Source: Bacteroidales bacterium (GTDB lineage Bacteria > Bacteroidota > Bacteroidia > Bacteroidales > P3). From it: a stretch of DNA of 35,796 nt. Below the pieces are notes generated by a model. The model saw only the letters and a program-made list of their open reading frames with translations, was not told where the DNA came from and made no database searches. Position numbers and translations under genes: made by a program. Positions 5,754 to 35,744 of the stretch are shown here, piece after piece. Numbering within the stretch: the first letter of the stretch is position 1; each line of letters opens with the position of its first letter. The stretch lies in NCBI GenBank assembly GCA_009783885.1, contig WRCN01000020.1:1-35796 (forward strand). Direction: 5' to 3'.

Positions 5754-6725
5754 TTAATGATTTCTATTAGCGATAAAATTCATGAGGTTTTGTAAGGTTG
5801 TTTTCCCAATACTATCCGGAAACGGATTGAGCAAATCTGTTGCTTTTTTAATATGTTCAGCAATTTTTGATTCTGTATAAATCAAACTTTCACTATCTAA
5901 AATTTGTTGCGATAACTGTTGAACTTTATTCACATCTTGATAGTAACTTTGGATGACATCTAACGCTTTTTCTTGATCGGTTTTGTTGGCTGTTCTCAAA
6001 AAATGAATGAGAGGCAACGTAAATTTTTGCTCATGTATATCGTTGTCTTTCAGCTTTCCCGTTTCCGTGTTGGGCAAGAGATCCAAGAGATCGTCCTTAA
6101 TTTGAAACGCCATACCGAGATGCCAACCAATTTGATGAAAAGTCAAAACATTTTTTTCATTTGTGTTTGCTGAAAAAGCACCACAGGCACAAGCCGCTGC
6201 AAAAAGAGAAGCGGTTTTTTTGCTGATAATATCGTTATAAATATCCTCAGAAATATCAATATTTGCTGTGTTTTGCATCTGAGTAAGTTCACCCTCACTA
6301 ACTTTTTTTATGGCTTCATTCATGAGCTCTAACAATTCGTAATCGTTGTGATCAGTCGCTATTTTCAGTGTTTTTGCAAAAAGATAATCGCCAACCAAAA
6401 TAGCAACTTTGTTGTTCCATTTCACATTGACAGATGGCTGATTTCGTCGAATTTCGGCTTGATCAATAACATCATCATGCAATAACGTAGCCAAGTGTAA
6501 CACTTCGGTTAAAACCGCACTCCGATAGGTTTTGGGTGTAATTTCACCACAAATTTCGGCAGACAATAAAATTAAAACAGGTCGAATTTGTTTACCTTGA
6601 GAAGTTTGAATATGGTTGAAAACATCATTAAGCAAAGGCATCTCGGAAGTCATAGCATTCGAAAATTCGTGTTTAAATTTTTGAAACGCCGGCTCAATGG
6701 GTAGTATGATTTCTTTGAATTTCAT
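5754..6725 (-). CDS. Polyprenyl (long-chain) diphosphate synthase
   Basis: This is a trans-prenyltransferase elongating allylic diphosphates with IPP. The 323-residue protein contains GKQIRP (44-49), the first aspartate-rich motif DDVID (84-88) and the second DDLLD (211-215). The residues just before the first motif are small (Ala79, Thr80), with no aromatic block, and the length matches octaprenyl/solanesyl synthases. A product of C35-C45 for menaquinone is therefore more likely than farnesyl diphosphate; this is inference. The start at 6725 is preferred: an upstream in-frame ATG at 6740 lies within the promoter. The -7 element ends only 4 nt before the ATG, so the operon mRNA may be leaderless. 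Confidence 0.9.
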   Translation of the reverse strand: MKFKEIILPIEPAFQKFKHEFSNAMTSEMPLLNDVFNHIQTSQGKQIRPVLILLSAEICGEITPKTYRSAVLTEVLHLATLLHDDVIDQAEIRRNQPSVNVKWNNKVAILVGDYLFAKTLKIATDHNDYELLELMNEAIKKVSEGELTQMQNTANIDISEDIYNDIISKKTASLFAAACACGAFSANTNEKNVLTFHQIGWHLGMAFQIKDDLLDLLPNTETGKLKDNDIHEQKFTLPLIHFLRTANKTDQEKALDVIQSYYQDVNKVQQLSQQILDSESLIYTESKIAEHIKKATDLLNPFPDSIGKTTLQNLMNFIANRNH

Positions 6726-6729
6726 TGTC

Positions 6730-6737
6730 CAAAGGTA
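6730..6737 (-). promoter_or_regulatory. -7 promoter element of the polyprenyl synthase-recF operon
   Basis: Read on the minus strand, TACCTTTG matches TAnnTTTG. Only 4 nt separate it from the ATG at 6725. Transcription usually starts about 5 nt after this element, so the start site would fall at or very near the start codon. No other promoter-like element is seen within the operon. Confidence 0.65.
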
Positions 6738-6769
6738 CAAAAAAAAATTGAGAATTGCAAACTATAGGT

Positions 6770-6835
6770 CGTCATGTCGAGCGTAGTCGAGACATCCCAT
6801 AGCAAGGGGATTCCTCGACTACGCTCGGAATGACG
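6770..6835. repeat. Inverted intergenic repeat, GTCGAG family (compact pair)
   Basis: Two inverted arms, GTCATGTCGAGCGTAGTCGA... (from 6771) and ...TCGACTACGCTCGGAATGAC (to 6834), are separated by the spacer CCCATAGCAAGGGG. Each arm is itself a short dyad (TCGAGCGTAGTCGA). The same unit recurs at 7394, 8824, 11687/11815, 16516 and 19593/19720. It lies between the 3' end of the HATPase gene and the polyprenyl synthase promoter. Confidence 0.85.
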
Positions 6836-6844
6836 GTTTCACGA

Positions 6845-7393
6845 TTATCTATCATACCCAATATCCTTCAAATTTTCCTCAATCAGTTCTTTCAGGTATT
6901 TTTGAATACTGAGGTCTTGAATGGGCAAATCATCCAAAACCACTTTAATTTCTTTGGTATCGAAGGTGTATTCGCCTTTTGGTGTGATGTGTTTATAGAT
7001 AAATTCCAAATTCGGATTCATCGAAGCCAACATCACGACAATACCTGCAATATCACCGATTGGTACTCGATCAATATGGTCAAAATCGAACGTTGCGACC
7101 ACTTTTGTTCCAACTCCGAGTTCCGATGTAATTTGCAAATTTCCATTTGCAAGTTCAGCATTAAGTTTCAGCAAAGGTAAGCCTAATCCCACTTTTCGAG
7201 TTTTTCGAGAAGTTGTATAAGGGTCCGTAACTTTCGCCAAAACTTCGGGTGACATTCCTGTTCCGTTGTCTTTAATCGTCAACACATAGCGATTCTTGAA
7301 TTTGTCTTCATCAATCGTAATCTCAATCAGCGTGGCTTTTGCACTGATCGAATTTTGGACAATGTCTAATATGTGAAGCGATAAATCTTTCAT
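6845..7393 (-). CDS. Small HATPase-domain ATP-binding protein
   Basis: This 182-residue protein has a GHKL/HATPase fold: an N-box (DIVQNSISAKAT, about 8-19), the G1 motif DNGTGM (about 40) and the G2 motif GLGLPLLKLNAEL (about 65-77). It lacks phosphoacceptor-histidine, sensor and membrane regions, so it is not a full sensor kinase. Relatives of this stand-alone type occur near [FeFe]-hydrogenase or NADH-dehydrogenase subunit genes in anaerobes; no such genes are in this window. The C-terminal 80 residues are specific to this group. The ATG at 7393 directly adjoins a palindromic repeat; a start 30 nt upstream would translate the repeat. It probably depends on the glyA promoter. Confidence 0.75.
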   Translation of the reverse strand: MKDLSLHILDIVQNSISAKATLIEITIDEDKFKNRYVLTIKDNGTGMSPEVLAKVTDPYTTSRKTRKVGLGLPLLKLNAELANGNLQITSELGVGTKVVATFDFDHIDRVPIGDIAGIVVMLASMNPNLEFIYKHITPKGEYTFDTKEIKVVLDDLPIQDLSIQKYLKELIEENLKDIGYDR

Positions 7394-7490
7394 GTTGAGC
7401 GAAGCAAAGCGTAGTCGAAACATCCTCTTGCTTTAAGGGGATTCCTCGATGGAGTTTATCCCGAGCGAAGTCGAGGGGCTCGGAATGACG
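7394..7490. repeat. Inverted intergenic repeat, GTCGAG family, filling a gene gap
   Basis: Almost the whole space between glyA (stop at 7496) and the HATPase gene (start at 7393) consists of degenerate GTCGAG-family arms: GAGCGAAGCAAAGCGTAGTC, then AAGGGGATTCCTCGATGGAG, then GAGCGAAGTCGAGG and CGGAATGAC. At least three arm fragments can be seen. No separate promoter for the HATPase gene is visible inside it. Confidence 0.8.
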
Positions 7491-7495
7491 GTTAT

Positions 7496-8776
7496 TTATC
7501 CCACAAACAACGGACGTGAAGACATCATTGCGTTCACTTTTTTACAAATTTCCGCAAGTTTGGCTTCGTCGTCAATGTTGGAAATCACCTCATCAATGAA
7601 GTCTACAATCACCGGCATATCTGTTTCTTTCAAACCGCGAGACGTTACGGCAGCCGTGCCAACACGGAAACCTGAAGTAATAAATGGTGTGCGACTGTCA
7701 AACGGAACCATGTTTTTGTTGATGGTGATATCGGCTTTTACCAAGGCGTTTTCAACTTTTTTTCCGGAAATTTCTGGAAATTTTGAACGTAAATCAATCA
7801 GCATTAAATGGTTATCCGTTCCTCCGGAAATAACTTTGTAGCCCTTGTCAATAAAGGCTTTGCACATGGCTTGTGCATTGGCTTTAACTTGTTTGATGTA
7901 AGTTAAGTATTCGTCGGAAAGTGCTTCGCCGAAAGCCACTGCTTTTGCTGCAATCACGTGTTCGAGCGGTCCGCCTTGAATGCCCGGGAATACAGCCAAA
8001 TTCAGCATTTGCGACATTTTTTTGATTTCGCCTTTCGGAGTTGTCAAGCCCCAAGGATTATCGAAATCTTTACCCATAATAATCAATCCGCCGCGAGGTC
8101 CGCGTAAGGTTTTGTGCGTCGTTGTAGTGATGATATGGCAATACGGAACAGGATTATTCAACAATCCGCGAGCAATCAAACCTGCAGGATGCGAAATATC
8201 GCCCATCAAAATTGCACCCACTTTGTCGGCGATTTCTCTCATGCGTTTCCAGTCCCAATCACGCGAGTATGCAGATGCTCCACCCACAATCAATTTTGGT
8301 TTTTCGCGCAAAGCGATTTCTTCCATTTTATCGTAATTGATCAAACCTGTTTCTTCTTCAACCGTATAAGGGACAGCTCGATACAAAATTCCGGACGAAT
8401 TCACAGGCGAGCCGTGCGAAAGATGTCCGCCGTGCGACAATTCCAAGCCCATAAAGGTATCACCGGGTTTCAAACACGTCAAAAACACAGCCATATTGGC
8501 TTGTGCACCCGAATGTGGTTGCACATTGGCATACTCAGCACCAAAAAGTTGGCAAGCACGGTCAATCGCCAATTGCTCGGTTTGGTCAACAATTTGACAG
8601 CCGCCGTAGTAGCGCGCTCCGGGATAACCTTCAGCATATTTATTGGTTAAGCAAGAACCTTGCGCCTCCATCACTTGCGGGCTTACAAAGTTTTCAGATG
8701 CAATAAGTTCGATGCCAACGGTCTGGCGTTCACACTCTTTTTCGATTAAATCGAAGATTTGTTGGTCTCTTTTCAT
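7496..8776 (-). CDS. glyA: Serine hydroxymethyltransferase
   Basis: GlyA is a PLP enzyme interconverting serine and glycine with transfer of a one-carbon unit to tetrahydrofolate, the main cellular C1 source. The 426-residue protein is full length. Visible signatures are [11 protein letters not shown] near the N terminus, [18 protein letters not shown], and the PLP-lysine motif [14 protein letters not shown] with Lys222. A TATCTTTG promoter lies 17 nt upstream of the ATG. With MetH elsewhere in the window it belongs to folate/one-carbon metabolism. The downstream HATPase gene follows after a repeat-filled gap of about 100 nt. Confidence 0.97.
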
Positions 8777-11686: not shown

Positions 11687-11867
11687 TAGCAAGGGGATGT
11701 CTCGACTCCGCTTCGCTTCGCTCGACATGACGGTAACCAGCGGGAAAAAGAAAGAGAAAAAAGAGGAAGCGGCAAAGCCGCTTCCTCTTTTTTCTCCCCC
11801 CTATTCTACCTACCCGTCATTCCGAGCGACGCACACGCAGTGTGCAGAGTCGAGGAATCTCCTTGCT
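11687..11867. repeat. Composite repeat: inverted GTCGAG arms flanking a hairpin
   Basis: The left arm 11687-11733 (AAGGGGATGTCTCGACTCCG... to ...CTCGACATGACGG) and right arm 11815-11867 (CGTCATTCCGAGCG... to ...GTCGAGGAATCTCCTTGCT) are inverted copies. Between them lies the long terminator hairpin at 11755-11795. The right arm carries an inserted mini-palindrome around GCACACGCAGTGTGC. The region at 19593-19772 has the same three-part design. It separates the convergent nitroreductase and SDR genes. Confidence 0.85.
11755..11795. terminator. Strong bidirectional terminator hairpin
   Basis: A perfect 19-bp stem (11755-11773 with 11777-11795) with an AAA loop. Its GC core is flanked by an A-run on the left and a T-run on the right, so it can terminate transcription from both sides. 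It lies between the 3' ends of the nitroreductase and SDR genes. Confidence 0.8.
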
Positions 11868-11884
11868 GTACATACCACAAAAAT

Positions 11885-12673
11885 CTACGTCCAAGAAATT
11901 TTTCGTGATAAATAACCATGCAATTTCGGAAGCCACCGCTTGATGCGAACCATCAGCAATTCACCACTTCCCACGAGAATTTCCGATTTGTTTTTTCGAA
12001 TGCCTTTGAGGATTTGTCGGGCTGCTTTTTGCGGCGTAATACCTTTGTTTTGTCCGGCGTCCATTTTACCATAAGCCTTGCCATCCGCCATAATCGCACC
12101 TAACGAAACATTGGTTTTAATTCGTCCGCCAATGATAATATTGACTTTAATATTGTGCTGATGATTTTCGATTCGTACGGCTTCAAAAAATCCGTGCATA
12201 GCGTGTTTTGCCGCAGAATACGCCGAACGCAACGGAAATCCAAAGACGCCGACCATACTGCTCGTGCAAACCAAATGTCCCCCACCCTGCTTGATCATTT
12301 GCGGCAACACAGCTTTCGTCAAAATTACCGCACCAAAATAATCAATTTCCATAATTTTTCTGTCTACTTCTATTGATGTATCCACGGCCAACCCACGTTG
12401 ACTGATACCTGCATTATTCATCAAAATATCAATTCGACCGAATTGTTCAATCAAACGCTTGGCAAGTGGTTCAAGAGTTTCAGATTGCATTAAATCCAAC
12501 GGTACGCAATGGAAATTTTCAGGACGAGAGGCTTTATTTTTCACCACTTCCAACTCTTCCAAAAACGGTGCGGAAGCAATCACAACGGCGCCTTCATCAA
12601 TCAACGCAAGCGCAGTAGCTTCACCAATTCCGGAAGATGCACCTGTGATCCAGACTATTTTGTTTTTGAACAT
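11885..12673 (-). CDS. SDR-family oxidoreductase (DHRS7-like)
   Basis: This 262-residue classical short-chain dehydrogenase/reductase has the NAD(P)-binding motif TGASSGIG (10-17), NNAG (86-89), the catalytic Ser near 138 (CTSSM) and Tyr152-x3-Lys156 (YSAAK). The pattern resembles the DHRS7B/YqjQ-like subgroup acting on lipophilic substrates. The C-terminal stretch (KRWLPKLHGYLSRKI) is basic and may touch the membrane. Substrate unknown. The start at 12673 lies only 5 nt after a weak TACCTTTA element that overlaps the edge of an inverted repeat. Confidence 0.88.
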   Translation of the reverse strand: MFKNKIVWITGASSGIGEATALALIDEGAVVIASAPFLEELEVVKNKASRPENFHCVPLDLMQSETLEPLAKRLIEQFGRIDILMNNAGISQRGLAVDTSIEVDRKIMEIDYFGAVILTKAVLPQMIKQGGGHLVCTSSMVGVFGFPLRSAYSAAKHAMHGFFEAVRIENHQHNIKVNIIIGGRIKTNVSLGAIMADGKAYGKMDAGQNKGITPQKAARQILKGIRKNKSEILVGSGELLMVRIKRWLPKLHGYLSRKISWT

Positions 12674-33186: not shown

Positions 33187-33308
33187 CAAGCGAAAAGTGC
33201 TAAAAATCACCATTTTGAGCGAAAAGCCCAATTTGAAGTTTTTTTTCAGAGAAACGTATTTATACATCAATAAATGGCGTTCTTGAATTGGGCTTTTCGC
33301 CCAAAATG
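33187..33308 (+). promoter_or_regulatory. Inverted-repeat operator candidate of the GNAT-E1-LuxR operon
   Basis: A 23-bp block at 33211-33233 (CATTTTGAGCGAAAAGCCCA...) recurs inverted at 33286-33308 with one mismatch; centres are about 75 bp apart. The core of the right copy is the dyad GGGC-N5-GCCC; the left has GAGC-N5-GCCC. A third partial copy, AGCGAAAAGTGC, lies at 33189-33200. The right copy ends about 24 bp before the -7 element, a place for a regulator touching RNA polymerase. The LuxR-type protein of the operon is the natural candidate to bind it. Confidence 0.65.
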
Positions 33309-33331: not shown

Positions 33332-33339
33332 TATCTTTG
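33332..33339 (+). promoter_or_regulatory. -7 promoter element of the three-gene operon
   Basis: TATCTTTG, 17 nt before the ATG at 33357. It is the only such element ahead of the three overlapping genes. Confidence 0.78.
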
Positions 33340-33356: not shown

Positions 33357-34004
33357 ATGGGTTATATTTTGCAACATTTTAATGCTTTTGATCTATGGAA
33401 AGTGGAACAAAATGATCTATCAGATTTCACTAAGTTTGTTTTGCGCATCTATTACGAACATCATTTAAATATTCCCGCACCGATAGATGAAGTTGAAATG
33501 TGTATCAAAGAAGACGATCTACTCTATCCATACACCCATTTTTATGCTTTAAAAACCAAAGAAAGAAAAATTTTTGGCGCTATAAATGCCTGTTTGTGGG
33601 ATGGTATAGAAGAATTGGCTATTGAACGAGAATACAATTTAAATTTAAAACAACTGATAAAAGCACGTGGTTTGAGTCCTCCCGAAATTTGGCATATCGG
33701 GCGTTTTGCTATTGACCGAAAAATAATCAATCAAAATCAAATATTAAGAAAGTTGCAGGGGTTTTATTTCAAATTGTTAATGACATACGCATTTGCCCAT
33801 GTTTGCACACATTCGGACAATTTGATGATTGCAGAATGCGATAAAAAACTACAAGGAATACTTGTCAAACTTGGCATTGTTTCCGAAGAACTAAGCAAAG
33901 GGCATTTTGTTTTGGGTTCGGAAGCTTTACCAATTCTCAACACAGGTGCAGGATTGCGGCCATTTGTTGAAAAACACAAACATTTACTTAATTATGTATT
34001 GTAG
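33357..34004 (+). CDS. GNAT-like acyltransferase resembling LuxI-type autoinducer synthases
   Basis: The 215-residue protein has the order of elements of the autoinducer-synthase/N-acyl amino acid synthase branch of GNAT folds. There is an N-terminal helix (DLSDFTKFVLRIYYEHH, 20-36), an acidic loop (KEDDLLYP, 51-58), paired strands HFYALKTK and KIFGAINACLW (61-81), the strand IWHIGRFAID (111-120), a helix, then MIAECDKKLQGILVKLGI (157-174). IGRFAID matches the conserved sRFaVD strand of LuxI proteins, with Arg116; the Glu usually three residues before that Arg is His113. Substrates cannot be predicted. The ATG at 33357 follows the promoter; an upstream ATG at 33288 lies in the inverted repeat. 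It overlaps the E1-like gene by 11 nt. Confidence 0.68.
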   Translation: MGYILQHFNAFDLWKVEQNDLSDFTKFVLRIYYEHHLNIPAPIDEVEMCIKEDDLLYPYTHFYALKTKERKIFGAINACLWDGIEELAIEREYNLNLKQLIKARGLSPPEIWHIGRFAIDRKIINQNQILRKLQGFYFKLLMTYAFAHVCTHSDNLMIAECDKKLQGILVKLGIVSEELSKGHFVLGSEALPILNTGAGLRPFVEKHKHLLNYVL

Positions 34005-34749
34005 AAATAGAATTTATATCAACAAAAACGAACAACAACGCATGCGCGATTTTAAAATTGTATTTGGCGGATTAGGCCTGGGTAGTGTAATTGCGGAATG
34101 TGCCTTGCGAATGGGTTTTGAAACTTTACATTTGATTGATGGCGATAGTGTAGAACTATCTAATTTGAACAGACAGAATTATACGCAAAATGATATTGGA
34201 AAACCCAAATGCGAAGCTCTTTACAGGCGATTGAAACAAATTAACCCCAACGCCAACATCACCTATTCAAATGTATATTTAACAGCAGAAAATCTTTGCG
34301 AACATTTGACAGGTGCAGATATTGCCATTAATGCCATTGATTTTACATCTTCGGCGCCGTTAATTTTTGATGATGTTTGTTTCGCTATGAATATTCCCGT
34401 TGTTCATCCCTATAATTTAGGCTATGGCGGGTTGGCTTGTGTTTTGACCAAAGAGAGTGCCAATCTTAGAAGTTTGAGCCAAACGTTTGAGGGTATGGAG
34501 ATAAACGTGGCTAACCATGTATTAAATGTACTTGAAAAAAAAGGTCTTTATATAAACGCTTTTAAAGATATGTTGACTGAATACATCGCCGAGCAAGGTA
34601 AAGAGCAGCCGCCTCAATTATCTATTGGGGCATGGTTGTTGGGTGGACTTTGTACAGATATTTTTTTGAAAATATTACGAAACAAACAAATTTTCATTTT
34701 TCCTGATTTTTATTATTTGGATAGTAAACTAAATCATTTCAACCCATGA
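33994..34749 (+). CDS. E1/ThiF-like adenylating enzyme, minimal
   Basis: The 251-residue protein has the ThiF/MoeB/E1 Rossmann-like ATP-binding domain. Motifs: an N-terminal R-x-Y-x(4)-EQQ segment, the nucleotide loop GGLGLGS (25-31), DGDSVELSNLNRQ (49-61, with Asp51, Asn57, Arg60, Gln61), Lys70/Lys72 in DIGKPK, and Asp116 in NAIDF. These are the adenylation residues of the family. The CxxC zinc pairs of MoeB/ThiF and any added rhodanese domain are missing. The late motif LSIGAWLLGGL is typical of family C termini. No ubiquitin-like or ThiS/MoaD gene is nearby, so the substrate may be a free carboxylate. It overlaps both neighbours. Confidence 0.82.
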   Translation: MYCRNRIYINKNEQQRMRDFKIVFGGLGLGSVIAECALRMGFETLHLIDGDSVELSNLNRQNYTQNDIGKPKCEALYRRLKQINPNANITYSNVYLTAENLCEHLTGADIAINAIDFTSSAPLIFDDVCFAMNIPVVHPYNLGYGGLACVLTKESANLRSLSQTFEGMEINVANHVLNVLEKKGLYINAFKDMLTEYIAEQGKEQPPQLSIGAWLLGGLCTDIFLKILRNKQIFIFPDFYYLDSKLNHFNP

Positions 34750-35492
34750 AAATTTCAATTACAAAAAAAACATGGAAGGTTCCAAAAAACAAGCTCAAAA
34801 TATTCAGCATAGAAGAAATTGAAGAATTTCTAAAAGCTTTGAATTTGGCATGTAGCGGAGAATTTTATATGGTGGATTATTACAGAGAAAAAATCTTTGT
34901 CAGCTCTCCTTCGGCCTTAATTTTGTGTGGACATTCTAAAGAATCTATGGTGCAAGAAGGCTTTGGTTTTTATTATTACATTTTGAAAAAAAACGAATGG
35001 GCTTGGATTATGCAAATGAATGAAGCTGCCTATGAAACCGTTTTTTGTTTTCCGGAACATCAGCGTATAAATTGCGTTGTTTCCTACGATTTAACCATAC
35101 AAACCATTAACGCCAACGAATTAATTTTGCATCATAAAGTTGTTCCTTATAAGTTGTGCAATAATGGGAATGTATGGTTGGCGCTATGTCATGTTACGAG
35201 GTCTTCCGCCAAAAAAATGCAAGGCACGGCTCATATAACAAACATGACAACAGGTGAACAATACGATTTTGTAGAAGACGAATTTGTTTTGTCTAAGATT
35301 GAAGTTTTATCCAACGATGAAACACAAATCTTAGAATGGATGGTTAAAGATATATCGCCGGAACAAATATGCGATTTGTTGAATATTTCCATAAGCAATT
35401 TCAAACGCAGAAGACAAACTATCTACAAAAAACTTGGTGTAAATACACCCGCCGGAGCCATTCACAAGGCACATTTGATGGGGGTTATTTAA
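34746..35492 (+). CDS. PAS-like sensor with LuxR-type HTH, transcription regulator
   Basis: The 248-residue protein has an N-terminal sensory region (about 35-150) resembling the PAS-like domain of Bacteroidota LuxR-type regulators (EFYMVDYYREKIFVSSPSAL, then a strand-rich core). A C-terminal GerE/LuxR HTH (about 185-248) contains LSNDETQILEWMVKDISPEQ, ICDLLNISISNFKRRRQTIY and KKLGVNTPAGAIHKAHLMG. No receiver domain or conserved phosphorylatable Asp is apparent, which points to control by a ligand or partner. Its ATG overlaps the E1-like stop as ATGA. In context it is the likely responder to whatever the two upstream enzymes make, and may autoregulate through the inverted repeat at 33211-33308; both are inference. 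Confidence 0.82.
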   Translation: MKISITKKTWKVPKNKLKIFSIEEIEEFLKALNLACSGEFYMVDYYREKIFVSSPSALILCGHSKESMVQEGFGFYYYILKKNEWAWIMQMNEAAYETVFCFPEHQRINCVVSYDLTIQTINANELILHHKVVPYKLCNNGNVWLALCHVTRSSAKKMQGTAHITNMTTGEQYDFVEDEFVLSKIEVLSNDETQILEWMVKDISPEQICDLLNISISNFKRRRQTIYKKLGVNTPAGAIHKAHLMGVI

Positions 35493-35543
35493 GATTTTTT
35501 TGACTTTGTTTGGTGTACGGAATTAGTTAGGAAGTTCACAGTA

Positions 35544-35674
35544 CCCGCTGGTGCGAGTTTGTAACTCGTGCCGACACTAAACTTTGCATATATTTTCGCA
35601 TTTTCCTGCATTTTTTTAAATTGTTTTTCTTTACTTTGCTGTATTGGCACGGGTCACAGACCCGCGCCAGCGGG
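35544..35674. repeat. Inverted pair of CCCGCTGG repeats
   Basis: CCCGCTGGTGCGAGTTTGTA... (35544-35572) and, inverted, GGCACGGGTCACAGACCCGC... (35646-35674) match at about 24 of 29 positions; the differences turn G/C pairs into A/T within each inner dyad, so each arm keeps its own hairpin. About 73 nt of A/T-rich sequence lies between. The right arm interrupts the transposase-like fragment at 35631-35744. Confidence 0.75.
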
Positions 35675-35744
35675 ACAAACGAAAATTTAAAAACAGCTTC
35701 TCTTGATAGTCTTTAGTGCCTTGCATTTGGTAAGATTTTGACAT
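35631..35744 (-). pseudogene. Truncated IS1182-like transposase N terminus
   Basis: On the minus strand a 37-codon frame opens after a TATTTTTG element (35754-35747). Its first 24 residues contain MQGTKDYQEKLFLNFRLS, which resembles the N terminus of IS1182-family transposases as I know it from Bacteroidota. The likeness stops where the CCCGCTGG repeat begins; repeat-derived residues and a stop (35633-35631) follow. The start could be 35744 or 35726. The rest of the transposase is not found on the other side of the repeat. Confidence 0.5.

Follow-up and report, generated by a model that had tools for sequence, protein, structure and literature searches.

The contig WRCN01000020.1 of the Bacteroidales bacterium assembly GCA_009783885.1, here called the window (35,796 nucleotides, the entire contig), carries near its 3' end three genes that are very probably the counterparts of the acyl-cyclolysine system reported in Bacteroidota, and that are predicted to make and to sense an N-acyl-cyclolysine. 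They encode a GNAT-fold acyltransferase resembling FeeM and LuxI, an E1-like adenylating enzyme of the AclA family, and a LuxR-type regulator. The assignment is made because of the E1-like enzyme and the genes that are linked to it. What the window holds is an unusual version of the reported system, not a new system; its layout, its receptor and its upstream DNA set it apart. An uncultured Bacteroidales lineage, whose genome here comprises 2.05 Mb in 60 contigs and is 98% complete, is in this way placed within a signalling system reported in 2025.

The original prediction, made from the DNA alone, knew of no described system with this trio. That statement has been overtaken. The E1-like enzyme is close to AclA, and N-acyl-cyclolysine signals of Bacteroidota have been published (Linares-Otoya et al., Nature 2025, 646, 423-432, doi 10.1038/s41586-025-09418-9, as cited in a 2026 review, PMC13419125). 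Literature searches turned up no account of this GNAT/E1/LuxR trio as such.

The second gene of the trio (33994..34749, + strand, 251 amino acids) had been taken for an E1-like enzyme, and this identification stands. It matches the Pfam family ThiF (5.3e-34), and a fold search places it close to AclA of Tenacibaculum discolor, with lower scores for the E1-like enzymes ThiF, MoeB and TcdA. The residues of the ATP site and those invariant in the family are retained, and identity to 34 canonical relatives ranges from 40 to 49%. The start at 33994 is supported because the frame then takes in an RNR segment at the N-terminus; its arginines recur in 35 and in 34 of the 36 family members. An AclA-type E1-like enzyme, a component of the acyl-cyclolysine system, is present, and it is predicted to act as the cyclase.

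The first gene (33357..34004, + strand, 215 amino acids), a predicted N-acyl-lysine synthase, had been likened to autoinducer synthases, and a LuxI/FeeM-like acyltransferase fold was indeed found. In the fold search, FeeM and LuxI score 15.8 and 14.3 against 13.2 for other GNATs, and no clearly unrelated GNAT family was seen. A Pfam scan of this protein gave no family above cut-off. Among 64 members of its family, 31 match FeeM (PF21926) at E <= 0.01, the best at 6.2e-9, but the window's GNAT is not one of these; LuxI is absent from the five Pfam families that the 64 match at the same threshold, and LasI is reached by profile at an E-value of only 0.83.

The third gene (34746..35492, + strand, 248 amino acids), a predicted signal receptor, had been described as a PAS/LuxR regulator. 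The LuxR-type half of that description holds: the protein matches GerE (2.6e-7, residues 187-241), as do all 38 regulators searched. The PAS half finds no support in the sequence: none of the 38 matches a PAS family, and the Pfam scan gave no family in the N-terminal part of the window's regulator. The profile of the regulator family does match a solved structure, 3clo (1.1e-20).

These three genes belong together well beyond this genome. Within Bacteroidia, represented by an even draw of 395 genomes, the GNAT occurs in six and an AclA-type E1 (E <= 1e-40) in six, and the six are identical. One of them (G272) has two copies of each; another (G032) has only part of the GNAT, and this carries an in-frame stop. 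With the window's genome excluded, each gene occurs in 5 of 394, and independent genes would fall into the same five genomes with p ~1e-11, relatedness being ignored. Because the sets coincide in this way, the gene set is beyond chance. An order-level sample gave GNAT matches in 6 of 393 genomes, some of them partial, weak or split.

Gene neighbourhoods give the same picture. Homologous loci were collected by scanning genome contigs with a single motif, [IV]WH[IV]GRFA, which gave 97 stretches, of which 85 were confirmed and 80 kept (two of them, L057 and L082, on one contig). Within flanks of up to 8 kb on each side, a regulator accompanies the GNAT at 77 of the 80 loci; of the exceptions (L065, L077 and L087), the last two have the GNAT at a contig end. 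An E1 lies in the flank at 59 of the 80, in two of them only partially (L076, L088). When 24 genomes were searched for E1 throughout (those of the 21 loci lacking it in the flank, together with L088, L004 and L007), it was found in 22, the genomes of L053 and L077 being without. For the clade of the window, 17 of 31 GNAT entries (P0001-P0031) could be paired with an E1 entry by equal size of the longest contig, which is indirect evidence of linkage. The conservation of the trio, proposed for checking at the outset, is in this way borne out in Bacteroidota, and homologues occurring mostly alone were not seen. We infer from the linkage that the published system uses a GNAT of this kind.

Some GNAT frames are interrupted by an in-frame stop or split (L008/L093 in G032, L092/L096 in G739, and L076). 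At L008 and L076 the regulator and at least part of the E1 remain beside the broken GNAT. Here, the making of the signal has possibly been lost and the listening kept.

What would such a trio do? In a first step, the FeeM/LuxI-fold acyltransferase would transfer a fatty-acyl group to the alpha-amine of L-lysine. The E1-like enzyme, to judge from its match to AclA, would then adenylate the lysine carboxylate with ATP, and the epsilon-amine would close a seven-membered lactam. The LuxR-type regulator would bind the product and turn on target genes at sufficient density. The original prediction had the E1-like enzyme activate an acid that the GNAT would then join to an amine. This order is probably reversed, because an N-acyl-cyclolysine needs a lysine that is acylated, the task of the GNAT, and a carboxylate that is activated and closed, the task of the E1.

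Signalling is, of course, not the only use to which such enzymes might be put. The GNAT and the E1 might modify a metabolite or peptide that is exported, or have a part in defence, with the regulator merely controlling them. E1-like enzymes are known from pathways for ribosomally synthesized and post-translationally modified peptides (PMC12250964, a review, in its accessible part), and the flanks of the 80 loci include C39-ABC exporters (32), NHLP-like leaders (19), LanC (13) and LanM/DUF4135 (12). At least one C39-ABC, leader-like, LanC or LanM gene occurs at 50 of the 80. These are raw counts, in which each label rests on one Pfam-scanned representative and the leader label on a match below cut-off (23.5 against 27.2 bits). 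However, the type of the neighbouring cluster varies from locus to locus while the trio is constant, and no natural-product genes, peptide or exporter cluster were seen beside the trio of the window's relative, locus L010. As for defence, the E1-E2 models of PADLOC do match the E1 (best 3.8e-16), but over the ThiF core only, with the models partly covered, and a defence system was rejected. Such non-signalling roles seem very improbable.

The genome of the window itself has four C39 peptidase matches, none on the contig of the trio. A bacteriocin target was considered and rejected, the C39 peptidase genes lying on other contigs, with no regulatory link to the trio found. On one of these contigs (C14, locus L190), a double-glycine-like leader frame (11755-12012) lies near a C39 peptidase exporter (5778-7970).

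In the relatives, the intergenic regions between regulator and GNAT have in common a palindrome, AAACTACAC-N4-GTGTAGTTT. It scores at least 15/18 in 56 of 77 relatives, whereas shuffled sequences reach a best score of 10.9 on average; the score was tuned on the very loci counted, many of which are closely related. An exact left half-site with at least 6/9 of the right was counted 35 times; 20 scrambled half-sites gave counts of 0-2. Elsewhere in 1.2 Mb there are 75 further sites at 15/18 or better, in 18 loci 42-70 nucleotides 5' of the E1 frame and in many directly after the GNAT, ahead of the next operon; some of the 75 are inside frames. This layout fits a regulator that would control the synthase, the cyclase and the adjoining operon. 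The palindrome is a criterion of this analysis, not known to belong to the published system. With its help, candidate target genes could be catalogued across Bacteroidota.

The trio of the window departs from its relatives in several ways, the first of which is its packing. As the original prediction had it, the genes are open frames on the + strand that overlap by 11 nucleotides (33994..34004) and by four (ATGA, 34746..34749). Among the 59 complete loci, the order is E1+ REG- GNAT+ in 54 and REG- GNAT+ E1+ in four (L011-L014); the window's GNAT+ E1+ REG+ recurs only in L010, from the Bacteroidales isolate Crp329_bin6. There, the GNAT is 92% and the regulator 84% identical to those of the window, and the trio adjoins purine-biosynthesis-like frames (identified by eye) and a small frame that also flanks the window's trio. 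The genes for the synthase, the cyclase and the receptor can thus be rearranged into a single operon while the receptor and the upstream DNA diverge.

The receptor is the second departure. In a regulator tree of 46 rows, 13 rows from the clade of the window and four paralogues from the two related genomes form one set (100/100). The window's genome has two further regulator paralogues in tandem (C39:11156-12730, L154), and a third match, on contig C13, that covers the helix-turn-helix only. After these two come genes for a TonB receptor and a DUF4249 protein, an order also found in the genome of L010 (L155, 4545-6154). The extra pair suggests that listening may have expanded beyond the signal-making locus. 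Its promoter and that of the trio have no 10-mer in common, and share 9-mers only as A/T runs.

Several of these facts weigh against assigning the trio to the acyl-cyclolysine system. A LuxR-type regulator does lie beside the enzymes, yet it shares no more than 20-27% identity with 36 canonical trio regulators. The palindrome is absent from the window and from L010 (best 12/18). The lead of FeeM and LuxI over other GNATs is modest, and Foldseek places RimL-type enzymes just behind FeeM. Residue 77 of the GNAT is Asn, where 41 of 64 members have Arg, and at residue 144 the E1 has Tyr in place of the Trp found in 33 of 36; because these two are atypical, the product may differ. Last, that the "Acl" of the PDB title stands for acyl-cyclolysine is deduced: the abbreviation and the phylum agree, and the first author of the 2025 paper is also a co-author of work on T. 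discolor (listed among the references of PMC12565237).

Divergence of this kind could mean that the clade makes a different cyclised N-acyl amino acid, with another amino acid or acyl chain, and senses it with its own receptor subfamily. The separate regulator clade with its two additional paralogues, the two unusual residues and the missing palindrome would all suit such a change. Against it stand the identity of the E1 to its canonical relatives with the invariant residues intact, and the fact that Asn77 is shared by 13 of the 64 GNATs. An altered signal is, on balance, unlikely, and N-acyl-cyclolysine itself remains the preferred product.

The upstream DNA of the trio holds an inverted repeat (33211..33308, arms 33211-33233 and 33286-33308), a dispersed intergenic repeat and not a proven operator. 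At one mismatch or fewer, GGGCGAAAAGCCCAA occurs in the genome only in the two arms; at two or fewer, there are 12 sites against 5 for a reversed control; and at three or fewer, the window alone has 9 matches against 1.36 expected. Neither a gapped pattern nor a DNA search found another full copy in the genome. However, the entire block recurs in diverged form on contig C3 (901-986), 5' of a frame that resembles rpoC by eye, and the genome of L010 has five copies in varied contexts, that of its trio included (L010 7857-7954). Because of these copies, the repeat was rejected as a lineage-specific operator. Closer to the GNAT, TATCTTTG at 33332-33339 is similar to the Bacteroidota -7 box. The downstream view is limited to the 304 bases of contig that remain 3' of the trio; there, at 35540-35675, two GC-rich, roughly complementary stretches (by eye) are perhaps another intergenic repeat.

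A more specific picture can be drawn tentatively, as a possibility short of an expectation. In this uncultured Bacteroidales lineage, the acyl-cyclolysine system may now be a free-standing, co-transcribed operon, uncoupled from the bacteriocin-type clusters that often adjoin it. It would have a receptor subfamily to itself, with more than one receptor in each genome (among them a tandem pair beside the operon of TonB receptor and DUF4249), and its signal may have changed.

How, then, does the trio compare with known systems? LuxI/LuxR acyl-homoserine lactone systems differ in that the trio has an E1 component and its GNATs match no LuxI family; LasI has Glu where the window's GNAT has His, in an alignment that is weak. 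FeeM, an N-acyl amino acid synthase (PDB 2g0b), is 11% identical to the window's GNAT in the fold alignment, and differs in that the GNAT has an E1 partner and itself no Pfam match above cut-off. The ThiF/MoeB/TcdA enzymes are set apart by fold scores below that of AclA and by NCBIfam cut-offs that the window's E1 misses (NF006395, 107.5 against 159 bits; TIGR02356, 94.8 against 275), so that a sulfur-carrier E1 was rejected. The acyl-cyclolysine system is the closest. The window's E1 lies in the AclA family, and AclA-type E1s across Bacteroidota, that of T. discolor DSM 18842 included, are accompanied by the same GNAT and regulator families. The differences lie in the co-directional, overlapping genes of the window, its divergent regulator with two more paralogues, and its upstream DNA, which lacks the palindrome of the relatives.
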